Origin: an uncultured Bacteroidia bacterium
Lineage (GTDB): Bacteria; Bacteroidota; Bacteroidia; Bacteroidales; F082
Direction: 5' to 3'
Length of the DNA stretch: 64,000 nucleotides
Assembly: GCA_902800965.1 (NCBI GenBank)
Contig: CADCGK010000014.1
Span: 1-64,000 of the forward strand
Position numbers and translations under genes: made by a program
The notes under the pieces: model-generated
Told to the model about the DNA's origin: nothing
Database searches by the model: none
Seen by the model: the letters and a program-made list of their open reading frames with translations, nothing else
In this document: in pieces, positions 43,129 to 55,885 of the stretch
Numbering within the stretch: position 1 is the first letter of the stretch
How the letters are laid out: each line of letters begins with the position of its first letter

Positions 43129-43800
43129 TTAGGGGTTATAGCTCGGTAGGGTTTCATATTCGGTAGTGTCTTCGATGCCGGCGTCACGGAGGGCTTGGAT
43201 GCGTTCGCGGCAGGTGCCGCATTTGCCGCAGTGCTTCTCACCGCCTTTGTAGCAGGAATAGGTCTCGCTATAATCCAGGCCAAGAGCCTTGCCGTGTTCG
43301 GCAATTTCTTTCTTGCTCAGATACGTGTAAGGCGCCCACACCTTGATGTTATCATACGTTCCTGCCGACATGGCCTCTGACATCGCATTGACGAAGGTTG
43401 GGCGACAGTCTGGATAGATGGAATGGTCCCCGGCGTGGTTGGCAATCATCACACGCTTCAGTCCGTTACTCTCGGCGATGCCTGCAGCGATGGCCAGCAT
43501 GATACCGTTGCGGAAAGGCACTACCGTTGACTTCATGTTCTCATCATCGTAATTGCCATCAGGGATGTCGGCAGCGGTCATCAGCAGGGCGCTCTTGAAA
43601 TAGCGGTGCATAAACTCCAGTGGCACCACGATATGCTTGATACCCAAGCGTTGGCAGTGCGTGATGGCGCAGATCCGCTCACGTCCGTTCTGGGTGGAAC
43701 CGTAATCAAAGGTGATGGCCAACGCGATCTCGTCCTTGAATTCGTACAACATCGTAGTGGAATCCATGCCTCCCGATATGATAATCACCGCGTCTTTCAT
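43129..43800 (-). CDS. queC: 7-cyano-7-deazaguanine synthase QueC
   Basis: QueC uses ATP and ammonia to make preQ0 from 7-carboxy-7-deazaguanine. The 223-residue protein has the PP-loop SGGMDSTT (residues 9-16), [26 protein letters not shown], and the zinc-binding cysteines in [19 protein letters not shown] near residue 195. Its start overlaps the queF stop by 4 bases, indicating translational coupling. Confidence 0.96.
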
Positions 43801-44267
43801 GAGTTGTGGAATGCTGAAATTAAACGTTGCTTCACCAAGTCCTGATGATCGGCGTCGCCATAGTTGGCGAAAGGCTTGATGGAGATGCCGCCACGAGGAT
43901 TGAACAGGCCGATGACCTCCAGGTATTTGGGATCCATCAGTTTGACCAGGTCCTTCATGATGATGTTCACGCAGTCTTCATGAAAGTCGCCATGGTTGCG
44001 GAAGCTGAAGAGATAGAGCTTCAGGCTCTTGCTCTCCACCATCAGCGTGCGAGGAATGTAATTAATTATAATGTGTCCGAAGTCAGGCTGACCCGTCTTG
44101 GGGCACAGTGAGGTAAACTCTGGACAGTCGAGGGTCACCAGATAATCGTTCTCCGGGTGTTTGTTCTCGAAAGTCTCCAGCACCTCGGGGGTATAGTCGT
44201 AGCTGTAATGGGTGTTTTGGTTCCCTAACAGCGTGACACCTTGAAGTTCTTGTTCGTTTCTAGACAT
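43797..44267 (-). CDS. queF: NADPH-dependent 7-cyano-7-deazaguanine reductase QueF
   Basis: QueF reduces preQ0 to preQ1, which is then inserted in tRNA. The 156-residue protein is the short YkvM-type form. The catalytic Cys and Asp lie in [12 protein letters not shown] (about 53-64), the substrate-binding [20 protein letters not shown] follows, and NPRGGISI closes the core. It is the first gene of queF-queC-queD-queE. Promoter element at 44285-44292 gives a leader of about 10 bases, too short for a preQ1 riboswitch. Confidence 0.96.
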
Positions 44268-44342: not shown

Positions 44343-44525
44343 TCAAATTTTAATCAAGTCCTCACCCAGTACAATTGATATTTTGGCGAGAGTGCGTAGT
44401 GTGAAGTTGTGTGTTCCGCCAAGCCATCGTGACACTTCGGCTTCAGTCTTTTTCGTGCTTCTAGCGAGGTCCCGTTGCGACATTCCCCGCTTCTTTAACA
44501 TCCCATCTAGTTTAGGGATTGTCGT
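44343..44525 (-). pseudogene. Truncated XRE-family antitoxin (HigA-like)
   Basis: An open frame of about 60 codons reads MLKKRGMSQRDLARSTKKT, then EAEVSRWLGGTHNFTLRTLAKISIVLGEDLIKI and a stop at 44343-44345. The HTH and the phrase SRWLGGTHNFT are typical of Bacteroidota HigA/XRE antitoxins. These normally have 30-40 more residues before the HTH. Here a stop codon lies just upstream and the best start is ATG 44501, so the gene seems 5'-truncated or frameshifted. No toxin gene is found beside it. It could still be a short functional HTH. Confidence 0.6.
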
Positions 44526-44527
44526 TT

Positions 44528-44785
44528 AATTCTTTCTGTTTGACTAAACTGGTTGTTTGTTTTTGTGGTGTCGCCACAAGTGGCTGGGTTTTGGCCGTTT
44601 TTTACATCAAATCCCGAGGAGTCTAGTCAACAATCTGGCGAAGCAACTCTCTCCCTTTTGTGTCTTGTTTTATGGTGCCACAAAGGTATAACAATTTTAA
44701 AAATTACCTTATAAAGTAAGTTTCTTCAAACAATAAGATAATCCGAGAAACACCGCGATCTCAAAATCAATCCCCTATTTGTCGA
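44528..44785. other. Non-coding region between the antitoxin remnant and the SUMF1 gene
   Basis: I find no gene in this stretch. It contains TTGACTAAAC (44540-44549) and an inverted near-copy (44621-44630), a short palindrome TTGTGGTGTCGCCACAA-like at about 44563-44579, and a minus-strand promoter element TACCTTTG at 44681-44688. It may hold the remains of a toxin-antitoxin promoter region. Confidence 0.45.
44681..44688 (-). promoter_or_regulatory. Predicted -7 promoter element upstream of the XRE remnant
   Basis: TACCTTTG on the minus strand fits TAnnTTTG and would drive transcription toward the antitoxin remnant. Confidence 0.45.
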
Positions 44786-45901
44786 TTATCTATAATCCAT
44801 GACCAAACGAAGTCCATAACAAGTATCCCTATAACTGGGATCAAGTTTATGGCGCTTCGATACACGACAAAAAGAAGATTGAGAGTACCAACTGCCGCCA
44901 CGTACCACACGTTTCGATCCACTTGAAGGGCCTGAGGGATCAGTTTGAGACCCTGTATTGTAACAACCATACCAGTCCTGACACCATTCCCACACGTTAC
45001 CACTCATATCGTAAAGACCAAGTGGATTTGGCGATTTGCTCTTCACAGGATGAGACGAAACATTGCTATTTTCAGTATACCAGGCCACACTACTGAGGCT
45101 ATAGCTACCAGAATACACAAATCCATTTCTATTGTTTCCTCCCCCTGCCGCATATTCCCACTCAGCTTCTGTGGGCAAACGAAAGTTTGCTCCCGTAAGT
45201 TGGTTCAGTCTGTAGATGAAATCTTGGCACTCATACCAATTTACATAATAAATAGGATAACTGTCCCCTACACCTCGCAATGGCTTTGAGTGTTCGACCA
45301 TATCACGCTGATGACTGACCGATGTTCCAACAACAGCTTTCCACAAAGCCTGTGTCACTTCTGTCTCACACATATAGAAAGAATTCACAGTCACACTATG
45401 AACAGGTCTTTCGTCATTATCAGTTTCATAATCGCCACTGCCCATTTGAAACGTACCACCTTCGACAAGTTTCATCACGAAAGATACACCTCCCACTGTG
45501 AAAAAGGGATCGCCTGTTGAGGTGGTCTGTTTCCTTTTTTGAGAGGCCACCCCTACATTACTTTTCCCATTGATATCATTTAACACAAAAAACAAGGTTG
45601 CAACCACAGCAATCAGACATAAACTACTGATTAAAAATATCGGCCACTTTTTTCGACACTTCGTTTGAGCTACTTCTATCTGTTGTGATTGGAGTACAAT
45701 AGGTCGTTGAATGGAAGTGTCTGCCTTAGAATTAATCTCATTGAAAAGACTCGCTATTTCAGGCACTGTTTTGGCTTTCTCCCATTTCTCCATGCCTTTA
45801 CGCCAAATCAAAGTGTCAGGTTCAACACCATGAGCGAGAAGTTCTTCTTGCGGGAAAGGACCTTGTCGAGATCTGTTTTTATCAACAAAATAATAGTTCA
45901 T
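44786..45901 (-). CDS. GYF_2-TM-SUMF1 (FGE-sulfatase domain) membrane protein
   Basis: This 371-residue protein has three parts. Residues 1-53 are a GYF_2-type domain (YYFVDKNRSRQGPFPQEELL, LIWRKGMEKWEKA). A single TM follows at about 87-107. A formylglycine-generating-enzyme-like domain spans about 132-371 (VEGGTFQMGS, ETEVTQALWKAV, RLPTEAEWEYAA, YDMSGNVWEWCQDWYG, RVVRGGSWYSQSSFC). Compared with true FGE, the first catalytic Cys is replaced by Ser (GGSWYSQSSFC), so sulfatase-activating chemistry is unlikely. It is the last gene of the seven-gene operon and may act as a membrane adaptor. Confidence 0.85.
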   Translation of the reverse strand: MNYYFVDKNRSRQGPFPQEELLAHGVEPDTLIWRKGMEKWEKAKTVPEIASLFNEINSKADTSIQRPIVLQSQQIEVAQTKCRKKWPIFLISSLCLIAVVATLFFVLNDINGKSNVGVASQKRKQTTSTGDPFFTVGGVSFVMKLVEGGTFQMGSGDYETDNDERPVHSVTVNSFYMCETEVTQALWKAVVGTSVSHQRDMVEHSKPLRGVGDSYPIYYVNWYECQDFIYRLNQLTGANFRLPTEAEWEYAAGGGNNRNGFVYSGSYSLSSVAWYTENSNVSSHPVKSKSPNPLGLYDMSGNVWEWCQDWYGCYNTGSQTDPSGPSSGSKRVVRGGSWYSQSSFCRVSKRHKLDPSYRDTCYGLRLVMDYR

Positions 45902-45912
45902 CTAAATCATAT

Positions 45913-46884
45913 TTACATAGTCCTAGCAAATTGTTCTATGCTAAACGAACCATCAAGGTTTTTCACCTTAATCTTTCCCAAAAGAATGTCAAAGAAAAAG
46001 GCTCGAATACGTTCTATTGTCAAAACTGCAGGTTTCCCATCACTATCTACACCAAGGTCATATGTCTTGAGAAGCTGTGACCCAAGTGCTGCCGCTGTGA
46101 GCAAGAAATGATTTTGGAACTTATCTGTGTCTATCAAATCCGCAGCCAAAACCTTACCCACAACGCTATAGCTATGAAGTGAACGTTGTTGTTCTCCATC
46201 AGTAAGCGTTGTACGCAAATCATCCGATGCTAGATTGATTTCTATCTTTCCACTTTCTGCACTTTCATCTTTATGACGATATAAAGATCCGAGGTCAGCT
46301 AATGCAAGCGAGAATAGACGTGTCGTCTTTGTATAGTTTACACGCTCTACGCTAAATACAGAAGGCAACAAAAGATTCACTTCACCATCCAATTCAACGA
46401 ACGGAGAAATGAAAGTGCCAAGAATGCAATCTTTTGCAAATAGAGACTGGGTGGCAAAGACGCCACCAATGACAACACAATTTTCAAGGACGATTTCATC
46501 GCCATACAGACTGCCCGATACAAAAGTGTTGCATAGCGTAATACTTTTCGCATTGACATCCGAGCAAAAAGTTGTGTTGCATCTCATGGCTCTTGTAACC
46601 ACCGAAGAGGCTGACCCAACTGCTTTGCGGAACATCACATCACCCACAACGTCATTATTAATATACAGTTCACGTTGGGTGAAAACTGCACCCTTCACTT
46701 CAAGTGGAGCAGCCTCTATTGTCAACTTATTGGCATAGATAGGTCCTTCAACTACAGTCTCGCCTACAACTGTAACTGTACGTGATAGTTCCGACATCTT
46801 ATTGGGTAAAATGCCACCTTTAACTATATTATTGTCAAGTCGGAGATTTGTATCCGTGACATGAACTTCTTTCAAATTACTCAT
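45913..46884 (-). CDS. Bactofilin-like beta-helix protein
   Basis: The 323-residue protein has no signal peptide. Residues 35-180 are a run of short beta-strand turns (TVVGETVVEGPIYANKLTIE, LEVKGAVFTQRELYINNDVVGDVMF, FVSGSLYGDEIVLENCVVIGGVFAT). These resemble the right-handed helix of bactofilins and other polymer-forming cytoskeletal proteins. The C-terminal 140 residues are unlike anything I recognise. It is located 11 bases after the SUMF1 gene's upstream neighbour boundary, inside the operon. A filament or scaffold role is an inference from the fold pattern. Confidence 0.6.
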   Translation of the reverse strand: MSNLKEVHVTDTNLRLDNNIVKGGILPNKMSELSRTVTVVGETVVEGPIYANKLTIEAAPLEVKGAVFTQRELYINNDVVGDVMFRKAVGSASSVVTRAMRCNTTFCSDVNAKSITLCNTFVSGSLYGDEIVLENCVVIGGVFATQSLFAKDCILGTFISPFVELDGEVNLLLPSVFSVERVNYTKTTRLFSLALADLGSLYRHKDESAESGKIEINLASDDLRTTLTDGEQQRSLHSYSVVGKVLAADLIDTDKFQNHFLLTAAALGSQLLKTYDLGVDSDGKPAVLTIERIRAFFFDILLGKIKVKNLDGSFSIEQFARTM

Positions 46885-46894
46885 ATTTACTAAT

Positions 46895-47920
46895 TTATTT
46901 GTTTAACATCTGATTTATCATTTCCCTGACTCGCCGAGAATGGTTATCATCGCCTGCAATATTGTTGGCTATTTCCGTTTGAATATATGAATTCAATAGT
47001 TCAATATTATTCTCACTATCTCCTTCCCAATTCACATTTTCAAGACAATCGCATAGTTTTTTCTGCAATCCAGAATTCTTAAAAGAATAATAACTAGGTG
47101 TTATGCATTGGCTTTCGATATTTTGGTTTTCGGACACAGTCTTCAAATAGCAAACAGGTACAAGATAAGAGTCGTTACCTGAACCTTCAATACACGACTC
47201 CAAAATTGTTCTCTCTGTTCTCGCTTTAGACACGAGAAAATCTTGGACTTTATTCATCGATTCCAAAGCGTGATGCTTGACCGTTGCCGCGCTAATCTGT
47301 GCTTGGAGCATGCTGCTTTCCTTACTCATTGTTACCGCAGTCTGAACCATGTCAGTGTGAAGCATTCTGTCGCTTTGTGTGTCCACTTCTTTCACTAAAT
47401 CAAACACAGGCTGATCAGCTTGATGAACTCGAACAGAAAGTTCATTATTCAAGTCGGCGAACAATTTCTGATACCTTGCAGTTGTACGGGCATAATCTTC
47501 CGCCATTGTCTTTTGTTTCTCTTTAAGGGAAGCTGCTTGTTGCCGCAGAAGTATCAACCTCGCTTCGATAGTCTGTTCCAATTCCACCTTTTGAGTTGAC
47601 AAATCAGTTCTGACCGTATGGAAAAAACCATCAATAATGGTTTTCGATACTTTTTCAGCATTATCTGCAATGGCCACACACTGCGCGGTATTCAATGCTC
47701 CAACGCTTGCAGTCAAACCATTGATGTGTTGGTTGCAATTCACTACACTCGAATCAAACGGAGAAGTGTCAACATGAATATCTACTTCTACAAGTTCCCG
47801 TGCAGTTCCACGAACAGTTACTGGCATGCTGCCACCGTTTTGTGAAGCTGGGTATCTAACTATTTCTGTCTTCTCATATGGAACTTCTACGGTTCTCCTA
47901 AAACGTCTACTATAACTCAT
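46895..47920 (-). CDS. Coiled-coil protein, paralog 2 of the SPFH operon
   Basis: I do not recognise this 341-residue family. Residues 95-190 are strongly coiled-coil (LSTQKVELEQTIEARLILLRQQAASL and following). It shares a layout with the next upstream gene: a VDTSP motif near the N-terminus, a GFFHTVRTDLS segment before the coil, a ELSVRVHQADQPVFDLV block after it, and a C-terminal VREMIN helix. There is no signal peptide or TM, so it is predicted cytoplasmic. Gaps of 10-11 bases separate it from both neighbours. Confidence 0.7.
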   Translation of the reverse strand: MSYSRRFRRTVEVPYEKTEIVRYPASQNGGSMPVTVRGTARELVEVDIHVDTSPFDSSVVNCNQHINGLTASVGALNTAQCVAIADNAEKVSKTIIDGFFHTVRTDLSTQKVELEQTIEARLILLRQQAASLKEKQKTMAEDYARTTARYQKLFADLNNELSVRVHQADQPVFDLVKEVDTQSDRMLHTDMVQTAVTMSKESSMLQAQISAATVKHHALESMNKVQDFLVSKARTERTILESCIEGSGNDSYLVPVCYLKTVSENQNIESQCITPSYYSFKNSGLQKKLCDCLENVNWEGDSENNIELLNSYIQTEIANNIAGDDNHSRRVREMINQMLNK

Positions 47921-47931
47921 AACTGCATTTA

Positions 47932-48840
47932 TTATAGTGTTTCAAAATCAGCAGACGCATACATCTTTTTGATCATGTCTTTCACACGGGGCGACACGTT
48001 CGATGCTTCTAAGATTCGGCTAAACTCTTCAGATACCATAGCGTTTGCTTCCGTTTGTTTCCATTTTAATTCATCCGAATCTCTTACCGTATTGAAGATT
48101 TGGCTAGCATTAGTAGCAGATAATCCATCAGGAGTCGATACATCTGTCCGAGGAATGCCAGCAACATCATTGATGGTCTCACAAATCACAACAGGAATTT
48201 GACAAGTTTGCTCGGCATTGCCTTTTGGATTGGATATCAAAATCTTTTCTGTCAGAGCGCGTTGTTCTCCGATTTGAGCTAGAAAATCTGTTGATTGTTC
48301 CAAAGCAAGCTGTGTATTGCGCTTCATCTTGGAAACAAGAATTTGCTGACTTTGTTCAATTCCTTCAGTCTGTGAAGTCACAACCCATGAAGTCAAGGCA
48401 TTCATTCTGTTAGACGAAGTTGCCATGTGTTTGTTCACCAACTCAAATACAGGTTGGTCAACTTGACGGATTCTCTGTTCCAATTCTTTGTTGACACTTG
48501 TGAATATCTTCAAGTACCTTTCTGCTATACGGCCGTACTCACGCTCCATATTAGACTTAATACTTATCAATTGCCGTTTCTGTTGGCCTAATTGCATAAG
48601 CAATGCCTCCACGCGGCTTTGTTTGTTGGCAATTTTTTGGGATATTTGAGACCGTACCAAAGTAAAGAAACCTCTATTAACATTGCTGCAAACTTTATTT
48701 GCACTTTGTATCTCTGCGGCAACAACAGCACTCTGCATGGTCACAACCGCTGCTGTAGTACCCTTAACATGGTTGGAAACACTTTGTATTTCAGCCGCCA
48801 TAGGAGTGGTATCAACCTCACAAGGAATTAATGTAGCCAT
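47932..48840 (-). CDS. Coiled-coil protein, paralog 1 of the SPFH operon
   Basis: This 302-residue protein is a diverged duplicate of the gene at 46895-47920. Matching features are VDTTP near residue 10, GFFTLVRSQIS, the coil VEALLMQLGQQKRQLISIKSN, the nearly identical block ELEQRIRQVDQPVFELV, and VKDMIKKMY at the end. It has no signal peptide, TM or catalytic motif. The two paralogs could form a heteromeric coiled-coil structure in the cytoplasm. Family unknown to me. Confidence 0.7.
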   Translation of the reverse strand: MATLIPCEVDTTPMAAEIQSVSNHVKGTTAAVVTMQSAVVAAEIQSANKVCSNVNRGFFTLVRSQISQKIANKQSRVEALLMQLGQQKRQLISIKSNMEREYGRIAERYLKIFTSVNKELEQRIRQVDQPVFELVNKHMATSSNRMNALTSWVVTSQTEGIEQSQQILVSKMKRNTQLALEQSTDFLAQIGEQRALTEKILISNPKGNAEQTCQIPVVICETINDVAGIPRTDVSTPDGLSATNASQIFNTVRDSDELKWKQTEANAMVSEEFSRILEASNVSPRVKDMIKKMYASADFETL

Positions 48841-48858
48841 ATTCTTTACTCCTATTCA

Positions 48859-50934
48859 TTATAATGTGTTGTTATCTTCCTCTTCAGGAATGCTTGGGAT
48901 GTCGTCATCTTCATCCTCCGGAATATCAAGGGCATCCTCTTCTTCATTCTCATTTTCATCTTCTGGTATATCAGGGACATCCTCATCTTCCGGAATATTA
49001 GGCATCATCGCCTCGTCATTTTCAGGAATCGAATGAACATCGTTTTGTTCCTCAAACACACCGTCATCCTTAAATGTTTGTTTCGCGTCTTCAACAGCAA
49101 TGCGACTAACAGCATCCAAAGCATTGACTGCAATAGAAGGAAGATTGAGTGACAAATGCTCATAAGTCATCTCTTCGACACTTGGCTCTGGCAACAAAAC
49201 AGATTCTTTTGCGAGGAGAGGATTTGTCATAGCGAGAGGTTTACGGCGTTCATCAAGGTTTTGAACCTCCGAAGCGGCAACTGCCATCGAATTGGAATAG
49301 CCATCTTGCAAGCGCGCGTCATAGAACTCAACATGGCCAAATCTTTCAGCCTTAAGTGCAATATCCTCTTGGAGGCGATCCATATAGTCGCTAAACTCTT
49401 CCTGCACTTTCTTGAATTCTTGTGCTTGCATCTCAAATGCAGTCAAAACCTCCATACTGTTTTCTTGTTTCTCCACAATGGTTTTATCCAACGATGCGCC
49501 TTCTTCGCCCATACTGTCGAGGGTTTTTTGAAGCTGTGACAGAGTGTTATACGCTTCCACATATTCGCTTAATGTCTGCTGCATATTATTAATAATGTCA
49601 GCGCTCTCGGCATGGTTGGAACGGTAGAATGCATCAACATCCTGATGCCATTTGTTCAGATAACTGATTTTTTGGTCGTGGATTTGACCATAGATACGAA
49701 TACGTTCAACTCGGTTTTCCATCATAAGACGTTGAACCATAGGTGCTACGATTTCCTCATAAATCTGATGGACACCAAAAGGAACGCTTGCATGGCTGTT
49801 ATCCTCGGCAGTCCATTCATCAGCGAACAAATTATAACGCACTCTGGAACTCTCTCGTAGTTGGAATGGTTCATATCCTTGAATCGAATCAGAATAATCA
49901 AAATGTTCATTCCTTATTCGTCTGATTTCCTCAGCTTCCAAAAGCGGTGAATAATGGTTGTATGGTGCCTTTAATATCCTAAACAACAAATCGTTTGAAC
50001 TGTTTACCACTTTGTCTGTAGATGCCAACTTCATTGCTGAAATTGTCTGCACCGACATTGCCATCGTGTGCATCAGATGCTTAAGAATGTCTTCAAATTG
50101 TTCTGTATCACTCGACAAGGAATCCTTTAGTTTGTTCAACTTGCAGAAATCATCTATTTCTCTGCTATAGCGTTTATCATCAAACACATTGACAACTGGG
50201 TGTCCCGCAGGGTCGTTTGTGGAATGTTCATTCAAAAAAGTGAGATATTCACTATTGTCAGCCACCAAAGGCAAATCGACGGACTTAACTTCCGTATCAT
50301 TCATGCAAAAGGAAATTGTTCGGATTGAGCGGTCAAGTTTTCCGATATAGTCACTTTGACTTACCTCCTGAATAGAAAGAGAATAATCGTTGGTATCAAT
50401 GTTCTCCGCTTCATTGGATGTTTCCACTATTGGAGCTTCCGTCGTGAGTTTCTCCAATTGCGACATCGTCTCAACAAGTAAGTCGTTCTGACGCGACATT
50501 TGCAAACTCACACGAGAATTGGGTACATTGCCTGCATAATCAACGACAAAGCACTTGTCTTCATAGGCTATCTGTTGGGCAACTGGGACATAGGCCACAC
50601 CCATTTTGGTGACCTTATAATCCCTGAAAATGTTATCGTATTCTTTTTTCTTGTCTGCAATCTTTCCATCAATAGCTTCAATCTGTTTGTCGTATTGGTT
50701 TTTACGGACAAAATACATAAAAAAAGCTATTATCGTAAGGAACCATTTCCAAGCGCCACTCTTTTGAAGTTCAACTTTGTCTCTATCCTCTTTTAATTCT
50801 TGGATTTGTTTTTCAAGAGCCTCTTCCTGGCGAACCACACGTTCTGCGGCTTGTTCATAGTAATTGAATAATAGTTTTGCCTGATCCTGATAAATATTAC
50901 TAGAATCATCAAAAATTTTTCCTGTTGATGCCAT
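48859..50934 (-). CDS. Large coiled-coil protein with membrane segment and acidic IPE-repeat tail
   Basis: This 691-residue protein is of unknown family. Residues 28-62 form a coiled coil, 67-84 a hydrophobic stretch (WKWFLTIIAFFMYFV) and 85-110 a second coil, so a hairpin or single membrane anchor is likely. The middle (150-420) is mostly helical without known motifs. Another long coil covers about 430-560. The last 55 residues hold five repeats of the type D-I-P-E-D-E-D, giving a highly acidic tail. It may bridge the membrane and the SPFH protein. Confidence 0.7.
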   Translation of the reverse strand: MASTGKIFDDSSNIYQDQAKLLFNYYEQAAERVVRQEEALEKQIQELKEDRDKVELQKSGAWKWFLTIIAFFMYFVRKNQYDKQIEAIDGKIADKKKEYDNIFRDYKVTKMGVAYVPVAQQIAYEDKCFVVDYAGNVPNSRVSLQMSRQNDLLVETMSQLEKLTTEAPIVETSNEAENIDTNDYSLSIQEVSQSDYIGKLDRSIRTISFCMNDTEVKSVDLPLVADNSEYLTFLNEHSTNDPAGHPVVNVFDDKRYSREIDDFCKLNKLKDSLSSDTEQFEDILKHLMHTMAMSVQTISAMKLASTDKVVNSSNDLLFRILKAPYNHYSPLLEAEEIRRIRNEHFDYSDSIQGYEPFQLRESSRVRYNLFADEWTAEDNSHASVPFGVHQIYEEIVAPMVQRLMMENRVERIRIYGQIHDQKISYLNKWHQDVDAFYRSNHAESADIINNMQQTLSEYVEAYNTLSQLQKTLDSMGEEGASLDKTIVEKQENSMEVLTAFEMQAQEFKKVQEEFSDYMDRLQEDIALKAERFGHVEFYDARLQDGYSNSMAVAASEVQNLDERRKPLAMTNPLLAKESVLLPEPSVEEMTYEHLSLNLPSIAVNALDAVSRIAVEDAKQTFKDDGVFEEQNDVHSIPENDEAMMPNIPEDEDVPDIPEDENENEEEDALDIPEDEDDDIPSIPEEEDNNTL

Positions 50935-50952
50935 GGGGATTTGTTTTATGAG

Positions 50953-51651
50953 TTAGTATTTCTTTCTTCTTGCCAAGATTCTTTCCAGTCGTCCGACCTC
51001 TTCCTCTATTCTTTCCTTATTCATTGTGGTGTTTCTCACCAAAACCTTTAGGTCTTCCACTGACTGGACAAATTGTCCATCGAAGTTTTTTGCTTCGTTG
51101 CTATCTGAAGGCGTGATAAAGCGCATCGATTCATGGAGAGACTGAAGCCGTTGTGTAATTAATGGATCCAAATCCTTAACAGCAGCCAAATAGTCCATGA
51201 GATTATCCATAACAATTCGAAGCGACACTTTACCCTTCATAATATTCTGCTCCTTATCATAAATCTGTTGGACTTTTTCACCTGAACGGAATGTCGCATA
51301 ACGCCCAATGAAAAGAATGAAAAGGATAGCCAATTGTCCTATCAATTGGTGTTTGAAAGGTATCTGAAACAGCATACCACAAATCATCCATCCCAATGCT
51401 AACAACGAGAAGATATTCATCGTTACCAGATGGATTCCCAGCATACCCACCTCTTTTTGTGCAGGTTTGCTAAGATTAAGCAACGGGAAAATAGTAAATA
51501 TAGCGAATTGGGTAAAGACCAAACAGGTTATTATGATGTCAAGTATCCTTACATTCTTTTCAAGTGATTGGCCAAAAAGAATAAAACAGGCAATAATAAG
51601 CCCATAACCTAATAGTATGGCTAAAGTACGATATATCTTTTTTGCGTTCAT
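50953..51651 (-). CDS. Four-helix membrane protein with C-terminal coiled coil
   Basis: This 232-residue protein has four probable TM helices at about 9-27, 36-58, 72-98 and 104-122. A cytoplasmic C-terminal half (about 125-232) follows, predicted helical and ending in a coil rich in charged residues (MNKERIEEEVGRLERILARRKK). I chose ATG 51651; the longer frame upstream overlaps the preceding gene. No family assigned. Its place right after the SPFH gene suggests it is the integral-membrane partner of the complex. Confidence 0.7.
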   Translation of the reverse strand: MNAKKIYRTLAILLGYGLIIACFILFGQSLEKNVRILDIIITCLVFTQFAIFTIFPLLNLSKPAQKEVGMLGIHLVTMNIFSLLALGWMICGMLFQIPFKHQLIGQLAILFILFIGRYATFRSGEKVQQIYDKEQNIMKGKVSLRIVMDNLMDYLAAVKDLDPLITQRLQSLHESMRFITPSDSNEAKNFDGQFVQSVEDLKVLVRNTTMNKERIEEEVGRLERILARRKKY

Positions 51652-51668
51652 AATGTTGATTATTTTGA

Positions 51669-52979
51669 TTAAATTTTCTGTCCACACTTTGGGCAAAATC
51701 TTGATGAAGGGGGAATTGCGGCTCCGCATCGGGTGCAAACATTTCCAATTGGAGCAGCATTTTGCTGACTACCACACTGAGGGCAGAACAACGCACCTGG
51801 AGCAAGAGGAGCCCCACAAGAGCAACAAACCGCCCCTGAAGTTTGTTGCTGCATGAGAGTAGTTCCGCAAGAAACGCATCTGCGTGCCGTTTTTAGATTA
51901 TCCGAACCGCATTTAGGACATGGATTGTATTCGCTACCACAATAAGGGCAAAAACGCTCTGTCGTTAAATGCTTTTTTGAACAATTGGCGCAATATACTT
52001 CTCGCACACCCATTTTAGGATTGTTTTGTGGCATTGCTCCCATACTACCTTGAGGCATTACCCCTCCTCCTTGAGAGCCAGAGAACGTAGGTTGATTATA
52101 TTGTGTTTGCATCATTCCAGAACCAATACTACCGCCCATACCACCGCCCATCATATTAATGGCCATAATACCCGCAAGAAGTCCATTGCCTCCTGATGCG
52201 TTACCTATTTGATCAACAGCATTGTTCGCCATGTCAAACATTTGTTCTTGCTGCCATGAATGGCCAGTAATAGACATAGTCGCTTGTTTGGCAATTGCAT
52301 CTGATATTTCCCTCCCTTTTTGAGTATTTGTATCGATTGAAATATCATTCACATAGAATTTTGTCATATTCAAGCCGTACTCTTGCCAAAACGGTAATAA
52401 GTTATTCTTGATATAATCTGACAAGGCATCAAGATGCGCAGATACACTTTTAAGGCCAACTCTTTGGGCAGTCATGAACTTGACTATTGCACTTTTCGAT
52501 TTTGTAGAAAACTCCCCATACGCCTGAGAAAGCATATCCGATTCAGTGAACACATCTTTGGTTCCAACCATTTTAATTAAAAATTTCTCGGAATCAGAAA
52601 CTTGAATTCCATATTGTCCATTAGCTTGCAACGGAATCATGGTTTGGTAATCAGCATCATGCACAGGCATGTTATTTACCGACCAATTCAAATTTGCAGG
52701 AAACAGCTTGTTGACTATCCACACTTCCGCAGTAAACGGATTTTTCCCTCCAAATGGAATTCCAAACAACGAGCGTAGAATAGGTAGGTTCTCTGTGTCT
52801 AGTGTATGCTTTCCTGGGCCAAATTTTCCCATAAGCTGCCCTTTACTAAAAAGGAGAGCTTCCTGAGACTCATATACAATTAATTGAGTATAAGTACTCA
52901 AATTGGTTTGAGGATAGCGGTATGCAAAAACAAACTCGTTGCTTTTAGGTTTCCAACTTGCGCAATCAATTAATGCCAT
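51669..52979 (-). CDS. SPFH-domain protein with four C-terminal zinc ribbons (YdjI/virion-core-like)
   Basis: The N-terminal 250 residues are an SPFH-type domain of the YdjI group (NEFVFAYRYPQ, VYESQEALLFSKGQLMGKFGPGKHTL, NPFTAEVWIVNK). A glycine/methionine-rich linker spans about 265-325. From residue 330 to the end eight CxxC pairs form four zinc ribbons (CANC/CPYC, CPKC/CVSC, CCSC/CPQC, CTRC/CPKC). YdjI relatives work with membrane-stress PspA systems in Bacillus. No PspA gene is present here. It is the first gene of the operon; the ATG at 52979 or 52988 may be the start. Confidence 0.85.
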   Translation of the reverse strand: MALIDCASWKPKSNEFVFAYRYPQTNLSTYTQLIVYESQEALLFSKGQLMGKFGPGKHTLDTENLPILRSLFGIPFGGKNPFTAEVWIVNKLFPANLNWSVNNMPVHDADYQTMIPLQANGQYGIQVSDSEKFLIKMVGTKDVFTESDMLSQAYGEFSTKSKSAIVKFMTAQRVGLKSVSAHLDALSDYIKNNLLPFWQEYGLNMTKFYVNDISIDTNTQKGREISDAIAKQATMSITGHSWQQEQMFDMANNAVDQIGNASGGNGLLAGIMAINMMGGGMGGSIGSGMMQTQYNQPTFSGSQGGGVMPQGSMGAMPQNNPKMGVREVYCANCSKKHLTTERFCPYCGSEYNPCPKCGSDNLKTARRCVSCGTTLMQQQTSGAVCCSCGAPLAPGALFCPQCGSQQNAAPIGNVCTRCGAAIPPSSRFCPKCGQKI

Positions 52980-52988
52980 AACTATCAA

Positions 52989-53431
52989 TTACTTGTTTAC
53001 ATGGAATTCCCTATCCGTGTCGGGTTCCCATTTTCCCGCCTATAGTTTCCCTGATTCAGCACAATACAAAAGAAGGCTAGGAAACTCATTCGTAGCTATT
53101 TTCGACATGCAGGCTCTGGATACCTAGTAAATAAAAATAGTACACGTTTACCTAGCCTGTATGTGCAATTGATTGAACACACAAAAGGCTGGCAAACTCG
53201 TGTCATCTATCCTATTTACTTAATTTTCCAGATTAGCATGTCAGGATAAAAGCACAAATTGCCTTCAACTATCCGGATTTCTCCCCGGACAATCAAAGGC
53301 AAATATACAAATTATTTGATAGAAAACCGTTTTTCAGAGAAAAAAGACAAACAATTGTGGGATTGAAGACGCTTATGCGCCAAAAATTTTCGGCTTCAAT
53401 CTTTATCAGGCAGAAAGAAGGATTGTGTTGT
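52989..53431 (-). other. Long leader/intergenic region upstream of the SPFH operon
   Basis: This 443-base stretch has no credible gene. It contains a GGCTAGG/CCTAGCC inverted pair (53075-53081 and 53151-53157) and an imperfect direct repeat AAGGCTRGSAAACTC (about 53074-53088 and 53185-53199). A promoter element at 53300-53307 predicts a 5' leader of roughly 300 bases, far longer than others in the window. Confidence 0.5.
53300..53307 (-). promoter_or_regulatory. Predicted -7 promoter element for the SPFH operon
   Basis: TATATTTG on the minus strand fits TAnnTTTG. It is the best candidate upstream of the operon; no convincing match lies closer to the SPFH start. Confidence 0.45.
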
Positions 53432-53782
53432 TTATTCCTCTAAAGACGATAGGTAATTCAGCACATTGGCCTTCAATGCAGGAAGATCATCCTTAATGGT
53501 CAGCCAAAGCACTTCGGGTAAAATCCGGTAGTAACCATGTACTAACACATGGCGCATCTTTTCAATCTGAAGCCAAGGAGTATCAAGATGCTCATCTTTG
53601 AATTCCGGACTCAACATATAGGCTGCCTCACCGACAATCTCAACATTTTTTACGACAGCAAAATACAAAATCCTATCTTTTATGAAACGATCATAATCAT
53701 AGCCCTCAACAAACTCCTCAACGTTGTTGATGGCATCAAGCATGTGCTCAAGCCTTCCTCTATCGTTAACTCGCTCTCTCAT
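53432..53782 (-). CDS. hepT: HepT-family toxin (HEPN domain, DUF86)
   Basis: HepT is a HEPN ribonuclease toxin neutralised by AMPylation by its MntA partner. The 116-residue protein carries the RX4HXY catalytic motif as RHVLVHGY (Arg77, His82, Tyr84). ILYFAVVKNVEIVGEAA near residues 38-54 is typical of DUF86. The start overlaps the mntA end by 17 bases, as usual for this toxin-antitoxin pair. All key residues are intact, so it is probably functional. Confidence 0.9.
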   Translation of the reverse strand: MRERVNDRGRLEHMLDAINNVEEFVEGYDYDRFIKDRILYFAVVKNVEIVGEAAYMLSPEFKDEHLDTPWLQIEKMRHVLVHGYYRILPEVLWLTIKDDLPALKANVLNYLSSLEE

Positions 53783-54065
53783 AAATCAATATTTTATCTT
53801 CATCGGCAGTCTTAGCAGCAAACGGGAGTAAACTTCCCTCCTGAACCAAATCGACTTTCTTGCCCATTGCGGCTTCAAGTGAAAGAATAATAGCCGCATA
53901 CTTAAACAATGAAATACGGGCATCGGCATCAAAACGAACCAGTAAATCAATGTCGCTTTCAGGATTCTCCTCCCCACGGGAATATGAGCCAAACAACCAT
54001 GCTTTTTCGATGGGTAGGGTTGTTAAACAATCTTGAAGCTTATGTATTATTTCCGCGTTGAGCAT
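53766..54065 (-). CDS. mntA: MntA-family minimal nucleotidyltransferase antitoxin
   Basis: MntA antitoxins transfer AMP to the tyrosine of the HepT HEPN motif. The 99-residue protein has the GSX10DXD signature (Gly26-Ser27 to Asp38 and Asp40) and a third carboxylate in KKVDLV. ATG 54065 was chosen; the frame upstream to 54119 lacks family similarity and contains the promoter. A TATCTTTG element lies at 54090-54097. Confidence 0.9.
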   Translation of the reverse strand: MLNAEIIHKLQDCLTTLPIEKAWLFGSYSRGEENPESDIDLLVRFDADARISLFKYAAIILSLEAAMGKKVDLVQEGSLLPFAAKTADEDKILIYERAS

Positions 54066-54089
54066 GTTATAATCAATTACATGTAACCG

Positions 54090-54097
54090 CAAAGATA
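54090..54097 (-). promoter_or_regulatory. Predicted -7 promoter element for mntA-hepT
   Basis: TATCTTTG on the minus strand, 24 bases upstream of the mntA start, fits TAnnTTTG. Confidence 0.55.
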
Positions 54098-54142
54098 CAT
54101 TATTTTTCTGAAAACACAATAACTACCACTATAAAAACCAAA

Positions 54143-54177
54143 CCCACTAGTTTGACAAAAAGCCAGGTACTAGTGGG
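54143..54177 (-). terminator. Possible terminator after the second POT gene
   Basis: A perfect 9-bp stem (CCCACTAGT 54143-54151 with ACTAGTGGG 54169-54177) has a 17-base loop. On the minus strand it is followed by TTTGGTTTTT. It lies 25 bases after the POT stop. The large loop lowers confidence. Confidence 0.5.
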
Positions 54178-54202
54178 ATTCAAGGTTTAAGTAGTTTGAT
54201 TC

Positions 54203-55885
54203 TCAGCATCCCTGCGTAGCCTTCTCCAACCGCTTCATGATCGAGAAGATGAAGACCGCGGAGAGGAGGCAGAGCACTACGAGGACGCCCCAGACCATCC
54301 AGAGTGGCATGCCGGTGCCCCAGATGCGGGCTATGACGCTGGTGAGGTAGTTGCCGATGGCCGTCACGCAGAACCAGAGACCCATCATCATGCCCTTGTA
54401 CTTGGGAGGGGCCACCTTCGTGACGAAGGAGATGCCGATGGGGCTCAGCAACAGCTCGGCGAAGGTCAGCACGAGATAGGTGCTGATGAGCCAGTTGGGC
54501 GAGACCAGCGTGCTGCTCACGCCGCCTTGTGCCTTCAGCTCGGCCGGGCTGGCCAGTGAGAAGGAACAGATGACCAAGATGAGGAAACCAAGGGCAGCAA
54601 CGATCATACCCATGCCGATCTTACGCGGCGAGGACGGCTCCTTCCCTCTCCTCGCTAAGGCGCCGAACACCGCCATCGAGACAGGCGTCAGAGCCACCAC
54701 AAAGAAGGGGTTGAACTGCTGGAACTGCTGCGGCAGGATGTTGATGGTGTCAGGCATGGTCTTATAAAGCATTATTGCCATGATCCACAGGAAGGTAGTA
54801 ACCCCGCACAGGATACCACGGTTCATGGGCTTGGTGGCTTGGGCGGCACCGAACATCGTATAGATCGAGATGGCTATCAAAGTCAACGACCAGATATTGA
54901 AGCCAAACCGAGTGAAACCCGAGACGGTGCTTTGCGTGTAGTCACGTGCGAAGTAGGTCAGGCAGAGACCTGCCTGCTGGAACGACATCCAGAAGAAGAT
55001 GACGACGGCAAAGACCATCACCAAAGCGGTGATACGCTCGCGGGTCTGCTCCTTGGAAAGTTCCTGCACGTTCACAGTAGTGTTTTCCATCTTCTTGGCC
55101 TGTTTGGTGTTGACATCAGCGTGCTTGAACCACTTGCGGCAGCTCAAATAGATGGCCATGGAGAGAATCAGAGAGATGCAAGCCACACCGAAGCCGTAGT
55201 TATAGGCTCCAGAGAGGGCGTCGATATAGCTGTTGGCAAAGCCCGCCAAGTCGTTGACGTTGCCCCCTTGCTGTACGGCCAAGGCTTCAAAATTCGATAA
55301 TGCATCGGCACTGATGGTACCGTCGAGGTACTGGTGCGCTAATGAAGGGATCTGCGGGACGTAGGTGTAACCCGCCTTCCCGAGAAAGAGGTCGGTGACC
55401 TTGGTAGCTGCCATGGGGGCGAACATCGAGCCGATGTTGATGGCCATGTAGAACAGGCTGAAGCCATTGTCACGGAAGGCGCTGTACTTGGCTTCGTCGT
55501 AAAGGTTGCCCACCATCACCTGGAGGTTGCCTTTGAAGAGGCCCGTTCCGATGGCGATCAGGGCCAAGGCGGAGAACATGGTGATTTTTGCCGTTGAGGT
55601 GGCCATCGGAACCGCCAATAGCAGGTAGCCGAGGAACATGACCACAATACCCGACTTCACCATCTTGCCATAGCCGAAACGGTCGGCCAGCATACCACCG
55701 ATAAGGGGCATGAAATAGACGCAACCGAGGAAGATGCCGTAGATGTTACCAGCCTGTGCTTCGTTGTAGCCGAACTTGGCTTGCAGGAAAAGCACAAAGA
55801 TGGCCAACATGGTATAATAGCCAAAGCGCTCGCCCGTGTTGGCGAGGGCGAGCGCATAGAGGCCTTTAGGATGACCCTTAAACAT
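54203..55885 (-). CDS. POT-family proton-dependent peptide transporter (distal copy)
   Basis: This 560-residue protein imports di- and tripeptides by proton symport. It has about 14 TM helices, the N-terminal POT signature as NTGERFGYYTM, the GLFKGNLQVMVGNLYDE stretch (TM3-TM4 region), and a YMAINIGSMFAP motif in TM5. The C-terminal half contains WMSFQQAGLCLTYFARDY. It is a tandem paralog of the gene at 55917-57599, separated by a 31-base spacer built of AGGGTTAAAGGTTA repeats. Confidence 0.93.
   Translation of the reverse strand: MFKGHPKGLYALALANTGERFGYYTMLAIFVLFLQAKFGYNEAQAGNIYGIFLGCVYFMPLIGGMLADRFGYGKMVKSGIVVMFLGYLLLAVPMATSTAKITMFSALALIAIGTGLFKGNLQVMVGNLYDEAKYSAFRDNGFSLFYMAINIGSMFAPMAATKVTDLFLGKAGYTYVPQIPSLAHQYLDGTISADALSNFEALAVQQGGNVNDLAGFANSYIDALSGAYNYGFGVACISLILSMAIYLSCRKWFKHADVNTKQAKKMENTTVNVQELSKEQTRERITALVMVFAVVIFFWMSFQQAGLCLTYFARDYTQSTVSGFTRFGFNIWSLTLIAISIYTMFGAAQATKPMNRGILCGVTTFLWIMAIMLYKTMPDTINILPQQFQQFNPFFVVALTPVSMAVFGALARRGKEPSSPRKIGMGMIVAALGFLILVICSFSLASPAELKAQGGVSSTLVSPNWLISTYLVLTFAELLLSPIGISFVTKVAPPKYKGMMMGLWFCVTAIGNYLTSVIARIWGTGMPLWMVWGVLVVLCLLSAVFIFSIMKRLEKATQGC

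Follow-up and report, generated by a model that had tools for sequence, protein, structure and literature searches.

Two neighbouring genes, here called A and B, raise the question of whether their products form one heteromeric structure and, if so, what that structure serves. They lie in the window, by which we mean the whole stretch of 64,000 nucleotides that was analysed. A first-pass annotation had described them as tandem coiled-coil genes of an unrecognised family, clearly duplicates and strongly diverged, and had suggested that they act as a heteromeric pair inside the complex of their operon.

Two divergent paralogues

The genes are where that annotation placed them, both on the minus strand (Table 1), with 11 bases separating the end of A (47932) from the start of B (47920). 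BLASTP aligns the two proteins over 300 columns at 30% identity (E 4e-30), in keeping with both the duplication and the strong divergence that had been claimed. The profile-profile comparison, which had been set beforehand as the check on kinship, detected the similarity with a probability of 100 and an E value of 9.5e-51; it was made by hhalign with profiles built from 59 A proteins and 63 B proteins, and the 294 aligned columns extend between the VDT block and the C-terminal helix. Judged by their sequences, A and B are paralogues. No convincing match was obtained for either protein with the models of Pfam, NCBIfam or PADLOC (best rows E 0.019–0.94, the best NCBIfam row being far under its cut-off), and the family, as had been surmised, has no name in these three model libraries.

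The landmarks on which the first reading relied are real in both genes, but their forms across the family differ slightly from those in the window. In the consensus sequences, the VDT landmark is VDTxPMA in A and VDTxPFD in B, and the GFF landmark is GFYTLIRSQISQK in A and GFFxTVRSEISQQ in B. The QPVF block of the window corresponds to ELDxP in both, and the motif near the C terminus is RVKxM in A and RVRxxI in B. An N-terminal extension of about 45 residues occurs in B only and is absent from A.

Predicted structures of A and B

Both structural models contain a first helix of about 140 residues and a second of about 50. In A, helices 12–152 and 155–200 are followed by a small C-terminal alpha/beta domain (pLDDT 79.6, pTM 0.30); in B, helices 53–186 and 192–242 are preceded by an N-terminal beta hairpin (3–50), predicted with moderate confidence (pLDDT 53–77 in blocks of ten), and followed by a C-terminal alpha/beta domain (pLDDT 77.9, pTM 0.25). 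Because the pTM values are low, the models do not fix how the helices are placed relative to each other. No transmembrane-like stretch was found in either protein.

The description of A and B as coiled-coil proteins holds in that the long helices are present in the models, but a classical heptad coiled coil is not supported, the long helices lacking the period of 3.5. The hydrophobic period peaks at 3.66 over the whole long helix and, over its second half, at 3.62 in A and 3.60 in B; the power at 3.5 is 0.37 (A) and 2.45 (B), compared with peaks of 7.8 and 12.1, respectively. The peak of A exceeds the 95% level of shuffled sequences (5.4) but not the highest shuffle (8.0); that of B lies above all 500 shuffles (highest 7.6). 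Amphipathic helices packed side by side would fit these periods. A hendecad (11-residue repeat), suggested by the whole-helix peak, was set aside in view of the lower peaks of the second half.

With the models as queries, Foldseek gave no match in the PDB at E 0.001 or better, and VIA-align, applied to the same low-pTM models, reached best Z scores of 5.5 (A) and 5.1 (B). Two resemblances of B were rejected. A COMM domain is suggested by weak Foldseek rows (COMMD9, E 1.2; a COMMD-like bacterial protein, E 4.7) and is absent among the 50 matches listed in a second structural comparison, which makes it unsupported rather than excluded. A likeness to pore-forming toxins comes from PDB rows that cover the beta hairpin alone, and we read it as that of a generic hairpin.

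A six-gene cassette

A scan of contigs, with one genome per species, gave 109 loci, the best 80 of which were kept; counts of genes and taxa by locus refer to these 80. A and B prove to be the fourth and fifth genes of a six-gene cassette, which agrees with their proposed position inside an operon. The order is SPFH–zinc-ribbon protein, TM protein, 691-residue protein (CC691), A, B and bactofilin-like protein, and the gaps between open reading frames (ORFs) within the cassette are short, with medians of 5 to 20.5 bases; the median for the gap from A to B is 5 bases.

Table 1. The insert that carries genes A and B, and the features within it (coordinates of the window).
Feature	Position	Strand	Description
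Accessory gene	44786..45901	(-)	GYF_2 domain, one transmembrane-like stretch, FGE-sulfatase domain
Bactofilin-like protein	45913..46884	(-)	323 aa; family matches Pfam Bactofilin
Gene B	46895..47920	(-)	341 aa; paralogue of A
Gene A	47932..48840	(-)	302 aa; paralogue of B; upstream member of the pair
CC691, 691-aa protein	48859..50934	(-)	conserved; acidic C-terminal tail
TM protein	50953..51651	(-)	several transmembrane-like stretches in N-terminal part
SPFH (Band_7_1) protein	51669..52988	(-)	PF13421, E 6.5e-36; C-terminal zinc ribbons; no transmembrane-like stretch
MNT/HepT-type toxin–antitoxin pair	53432..54119	(-)	HepT 53432-53782; nucleotidyltransferase 53766-54119
Insert	44502..54202, approximate		between QueF (43797-44267) and a transporter gene (54203-55885)

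The TM protein has 232 residues if it starts at the ATG at 51651, or 261 if it starts at the TTG at 51738. CC691 matches no Pfam family over its cut-off and, in profile comparisons, shows no similarity to A, B, the TM protein or TelA; a hydrophobic stretch at residues ~61–76, noted by eye, falls below the transmembrane threshold used. The product of the sixth gene weakly resembles the bactofilins (PF04519), in that the Pfam model is matched by 28 of 37 members of its family with an E value of 0.1 or lower (best E 8.2e-6). It departs from them in its length, in that the window's own member has no match to that model, and in that the family profile finds a single PDB row, Bactofilin A, at E 0.2 and over profile positions 58–135 only. 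In the window's member, a single transmembrane-like stretch only just passes the threshold (1.61, compared with 1.6).

Within the best 80 of the 109 loci, A is present in 80, B in 78, the 691-residue protein in 77, the bactofilin-like protein in 76, the TM protein in 66 and the SPFH protein in 64. The first-pass annotation had proposed to count how often A and B occur together, and both are found in 78 of the 80. One of the two exceptions, L050, has a contig that ends 10 bases past A; in the other, L008, A is directly followed by an unrelated ORF of 403 residues (1773–2984), presumably transposase-like, and this locus is probably a broken copy of the cassette. The three loci without the 691-residue protein all begin ≤418 bases from the cassette, at contig ends, and three of the four without the bactofilin-like gene end within 103 bases, the fourth being L008. 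The SPFH gene is missing from 16 loci. In 11 of these the contig starts no more than 418 bases away from the first cassette gene; the other five (L023, L051, L056, L081 and L087) have 2.4–8.1 kb of upstream DNA and yet no SPFH gene there, and all except L051 are also without the TM gene. From this pattern of contig ends it follows that 691–A–B–bactofilin is the firmest core, and that SPFH and TM can be absent from the locus. The joint conservation of A and B is thus confirmed, but the pair is too narrow a unit, as it is the whole cassette that is conserved.

Downstream of the cassette, the accessory gene varies. Relatives of the window's accessory protein occur in seven of the best 80 of the 109 loci, and other genes occupy the place elsewhere, among them genes combining GYF_2 with YARHG, SH3_3 or zinc ribbons; at some loci the accessory protein starts with a zinc ribbon instead of GYF_2. 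One such gene (L031, 13520–15844) continues with nine WG repeats and an SH3_3 domain, and a similar gene with a zinc-ribbon start is found in L034 (10972–13281).

Distribution and age

According to the record titles, all of the best 80 of the 109 loci are from Bacteroidota: 61 from Bacteroidales, seven from Flavobacteriales, five from other orders and seven without an order. Bacteria of gut and of environmental habitats are both among the scattered carriers. The genes are rare. In the order, eight of 393 genomes are positive, the window's own included, and each of the eight has two matches. Among 149 relatives searched there are three positives, namely the window's own genome and two from other families, and the other genomes of the window's genus in this sample have no A/B match; in an even sample of the phylum, the window's own genome is the only positive of 395. 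Two draft genomes contain two module loci each (L022 with L029, and L061 with L064), and it may be that some genomes hold two copies of the module or that the drafts hold duplicates.

A FastTree phylogeny of 81 A and 78 B proteins places all B proteins in one clade (support 1.0), apart from all A proteins. Only complete B proteins entered this tree and the 78-locus Mantel test described below; L069, where B is cut by the contig end, was left out. Within one locus A and B are 22–34% identical; between loci, the average identity is 49% for A and 43% for B. The clean split in the tree points to one duplication before the spread of all the loci seen.

The insertion site

The cassette occupies a variable site, bracketed by QueF and the transporter gene. 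In the window, the G+C content between 44 and 54 kb is 39.5–44%, compared with 44–55% to the left and 48–54% to the right. The same site was read in nine stretches from relatives (L127–L135). QueF and the transporter gene lie <90 bases apart in L130 and L132, where the site is nearly empty, and about 200 bases apart in L133. Other DNA, 1.8–3.6 kb long, fills the site in L127, L129 and L131, and one filled site carries what we take to be an ORF6N/KilA-N-like protein and a small helix-turn-helix gene. In L128 and L134 only more distant relatives of the transporter adjoin QueF, and in L135 none does. A piece of this small gene is kept in the window as a 52-residue ORF (44343–44501), which is, with one difference, the end of a 97-residue gene that adjoins QueF in L127 and therefore probably belongs to the older content of the site. 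Immediately upstream of the cassette, and still inside the low-G+C insert, is the MNT/HepT pair; relatives of HepT or of the nucleotidyltransferase were not found in the best 80 of the 109 loci.

Such a setting brings to mind an anti-phage defence system, in which an SPFH/bactofilin-like assembly would sense at the membrane and the effector would come from the variable accessory gene. The low-G+C insert at a variable site beside a toxin–antitoxin pair, the rare and scattered occurrence of A and B (eight positives among 393 genomes in the order) and the varying accessory genes are all compatible with this. The neighbourhoods of the other loci were examined through the 239 nearest ORFs (two per side), of which 163 were of 110–520 residues; 153 remained after four near-duplicate loci had been dropped, and 150, from 65 loci, were used. 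Among the 25 listed of the 35 models that match these ORFs are some of defence type: ZorA, ThsB, REase_II, PDC-S01, PDC-S10 and PDC-M64 with one member each, and DEDDh with two. As the matches are few and were counted in cassette neighbourhoods alone, the defence-island signal is weak; moreover, no defence family was recognised among the 25 most frequent of the 150 Pfam families in the flanking ORFs. The cassette itself also argues against a defence role. The best PADLOC row for its seven proteins (E 0.0093) covers a 37-residue stretch of the 691-residue protein, so that none matches a known anti-phage protein below E 0.009, and no nuclease or known toxic domain in the core is over the cut-off in Pfam or NCBIfam. 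No relative was found when A, as a single protein, was searched in viral contigs, plasmids and phages, or when the profiles of A and of the 691-residue protein were searched in viral contigs. We consider defence unlikely as the function of the cassette.

Associations among the cassette proteins

Over 78 loci, the evolutionary distances of A and B are correlated at 0.93 (Mantel test). Since the other pairs of cassette genes reach 0.80–0.92, this value alone shows common descent. Partial distance correlations, in which the other four genes are removed, were calculated for the 51 non-redundant loci that a filter on A left of the 60 in which all six genes are complete. The highest values are those of A with the bactofilin-like protein (0.495), SPFH with the 691-residue protein (0.484) and A with B (0.46), followed by TM with SPFH (0.285) and A with TM (0.223), each of these reached by 0 of 1000 permutations; A with the 691-residue protein gives 0.201 (5 of 1000). 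Values near zero were obtained for A with SPFH (0.054), B with the bactofilin-like protein (0.085), the 691-residue protein with TM (-0.073) and SPFH with the bactofilin-like protein (0.033). In neither of the two strongest pairs do the genes lie next to each other on the DNA, and A is linked to the bactofilin-like gene as tightly as to B. The six proteins can be read, tentatively and from their sequence distances, as a membrane block (SPFH, TM and the 691-residue protein) and a rod-and-filament block (A, B and the bactofilin-like protein), with A between the two, a picture that the values for A with the 691-residue protein and with TM blur. It should be noted that such correlations can also arise from a common history and common rates instead of contact.

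Coupling between columns of A and B was calculated from 69 of the 78 pairs after a 90% filter (effective number 43.5); the control inside A gives a helix-like signal at offsets 3, 4 and 7. Between A and B, the best single diagonal is antiparallel (3.67) and lies above every parallel one; the best single parallel offset is 52, and offset 0 is without signal. The in-register band ranks 19, 8 and 1 of 161 at half-widths of 2, 4 and 7, respectively, and its value at half-width 4 is reached by two of 200 free shuffles and seven of 200 within-clade shuffles. As the in-register signal depends on the width of the band and the best diagonal is antiparallel, the support for side-by-side contact of A and B is weak.

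The heteromeric pair proposed at the outset is nevertheless likely: the two genes co-occur in 78 of 80 loci, both copies are present in all eight positive genomes of the order, the split between them is old, and their partial correlation is 0.46. A different arrangement can also be argued. After the duplication, A and B might have become separate homo-oligomers with different posts in one assembly, kept since both posts are needed; A might, for example, lie against the bactofilin-like filament, and B, with its beta hairpin, elsewhere. The association of A with the bactofilin-like protein, which is as high as that with B, the low value for B with the same partner and the N-terminal extension in B alone would suit this arrangement, as would the weak in-register coupling. 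It accounts less readily for the A–B partial correlation, which persists after the other genes have been removed, and for the pairing of A and B with only a few bases between them. We regard separate homo-oligomers as possible, though rather doubtful.

A model for a proposed A/B heteromer

Scattered over the Bacteroidota and present at a variable site, the cassette encodes SPFH and bactofilin-like parts, which A and B would connect. SPFH proteins are organisers of membrane patches; the hallmark of bactofilins is the formation of filaments without nucleotide. Our preferred reading, to which we assign a rough probability of 0.45, is that A and B form a heteromeric rod, which would connect a filament of the bactofilin-like protein with an SPFH platform at the membrane. 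The SPFH–zinc-ribbon protein, the membrane protein and the 691-residue protein would together build this platform at the inner membrane, and the bactofilin-like protein would form a filament or patch. The rod would be an obligate heteromer with A and B as its subunits, which would probably lie side by side along their long helices with the C-terminal domains at one end, and it would link platform and filament mainly through A. The accessory proteins with GYF or zinc-ribbon ends (in the window, GYF with FGE-sulfatase) would be variable clients. By analogy with YdjI and PspA in Bacillus subtilis, the likely use would be to protect or organise a membrane patch under stress.

More broadly, and only tentatively, the cassette may represent an unrecognised, horizontally spread kind of bacterial membrane scaffold. 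Its obligate A/B rod, belonging to a new protein family, would span the distance from SPFH platform to bactofilin-like filament, and the GYF or zinc-ribbon clients would be exchangeable. As far as our literature search shows, a system with both SPFH and bactofilin-like parts is undescribed: no paper with both 'SPFH' and 'bactofilin' was returned, and none was recognised as dealing with this cassette. A single cassette that ties the two parts together via a paired family would be a compact system for testing parts and contacts.

Comparison with known systems

The closest parallel considered is the pspA-ydjGHI operon of B. subtilis. The cassette shares with it a Band_7_1 SPFH protein without a membrane segment of its own and a TM gene that adjoins the SPFH gene. 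Band_7_1 also matches the B. subtilis genome, used as a control, and we take the matching protein to be YdjI; YdjI carries zinc ribbons. The cassette differs in having no PspA (PF04012), which is absent from its proteins and has no match in the window's genome; two paralogous helical proteins, the 691-residue protein and the bactofilin-like protein are found instead. PspA of B. subtilis reaches the membrane with the help of the SPFH protein YdjI, which needs membrane partners, and of YdjG/H (PMC8581546); to that extent the systems are alike, in that the SPFH protein of the cassette also has a membrane partner and helical proteins encoded alongside.

This similarity of setting, with an SPFH protein, membrane partners and a helical protein (PMC8581546), together with the lack of a PspA match in the window's genome, could suggest that A and B themselves belong, as distant relatives, to the PspA/ESCRT-III or TelA helical families and act directly in membrane remodelling. 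For TelA there is some likeness of arrangement, in that L110 has a long protein beside a membrane protein, and one of 40 members of the TM-protein family weakly matches Halogen_Hydrol (E 0.0033), a family found beside TelA. A and B, however, show no profile similarity to either: hhalign gave probabilities of 0.5 (A) and 0.2 (B) with PspA (E 0.13 and 0.3; a small profile of three rows) and of 0.1 and 0.4 with TelA (E 0.47 and 0.14; four rows). TelA (PF05816) was not found in the window's genome, and the lack of a fold match for A and B at E 0.001 points the same way. Such membership is not supported by these comparisons, and we judge it highly improbable. A kinship of the TM protein with the membrane protein adjacent to TelA in L110 was also rejected (probability 7, over 41 columns of membrane segment only).

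SPFH proteins of the Band_7_1 type are common in the order, being present in 60 of 198 genomes at E 0.001 and in 50 over the curated cut-off; A and B thus mark one special class. Among the subfamilies of an earlier classification, SPFH8 and SPFH9 are described as most likely soluble, and 6–12 as having no documented member (PMC2636767). Nine other SPFH neighbourhoods of Bacteroidales (L136–L144), picked by hand from weaker Band_7_1 rows and including one contig of only 4.9 kb (L137), contain no A, B, 691-residue or bactofilin-like gene at E below 0.03; in one of them (L141), the SPFH gene lies beside a relative of the TM protein (E 6e-7). Four of the A/B loci (L023, L056, L081 and L087) keep the genes for the 691-residue protein, A, B and the bactofilin-like protein, with no SPFH or TM gene directly upstream. 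The window's genome encodes a second SPFH protein of 417 residues (L136, 10930–12183), with no A, B or bactofilin-like gene in the 19 kb read around it. Another class of SPFH operon in Bacteroidales is seen in L137, L138, L139 and L140, where the neighbouring protein has an ALADGEVTEKE-like start that, in our estimation, resembles TerB.
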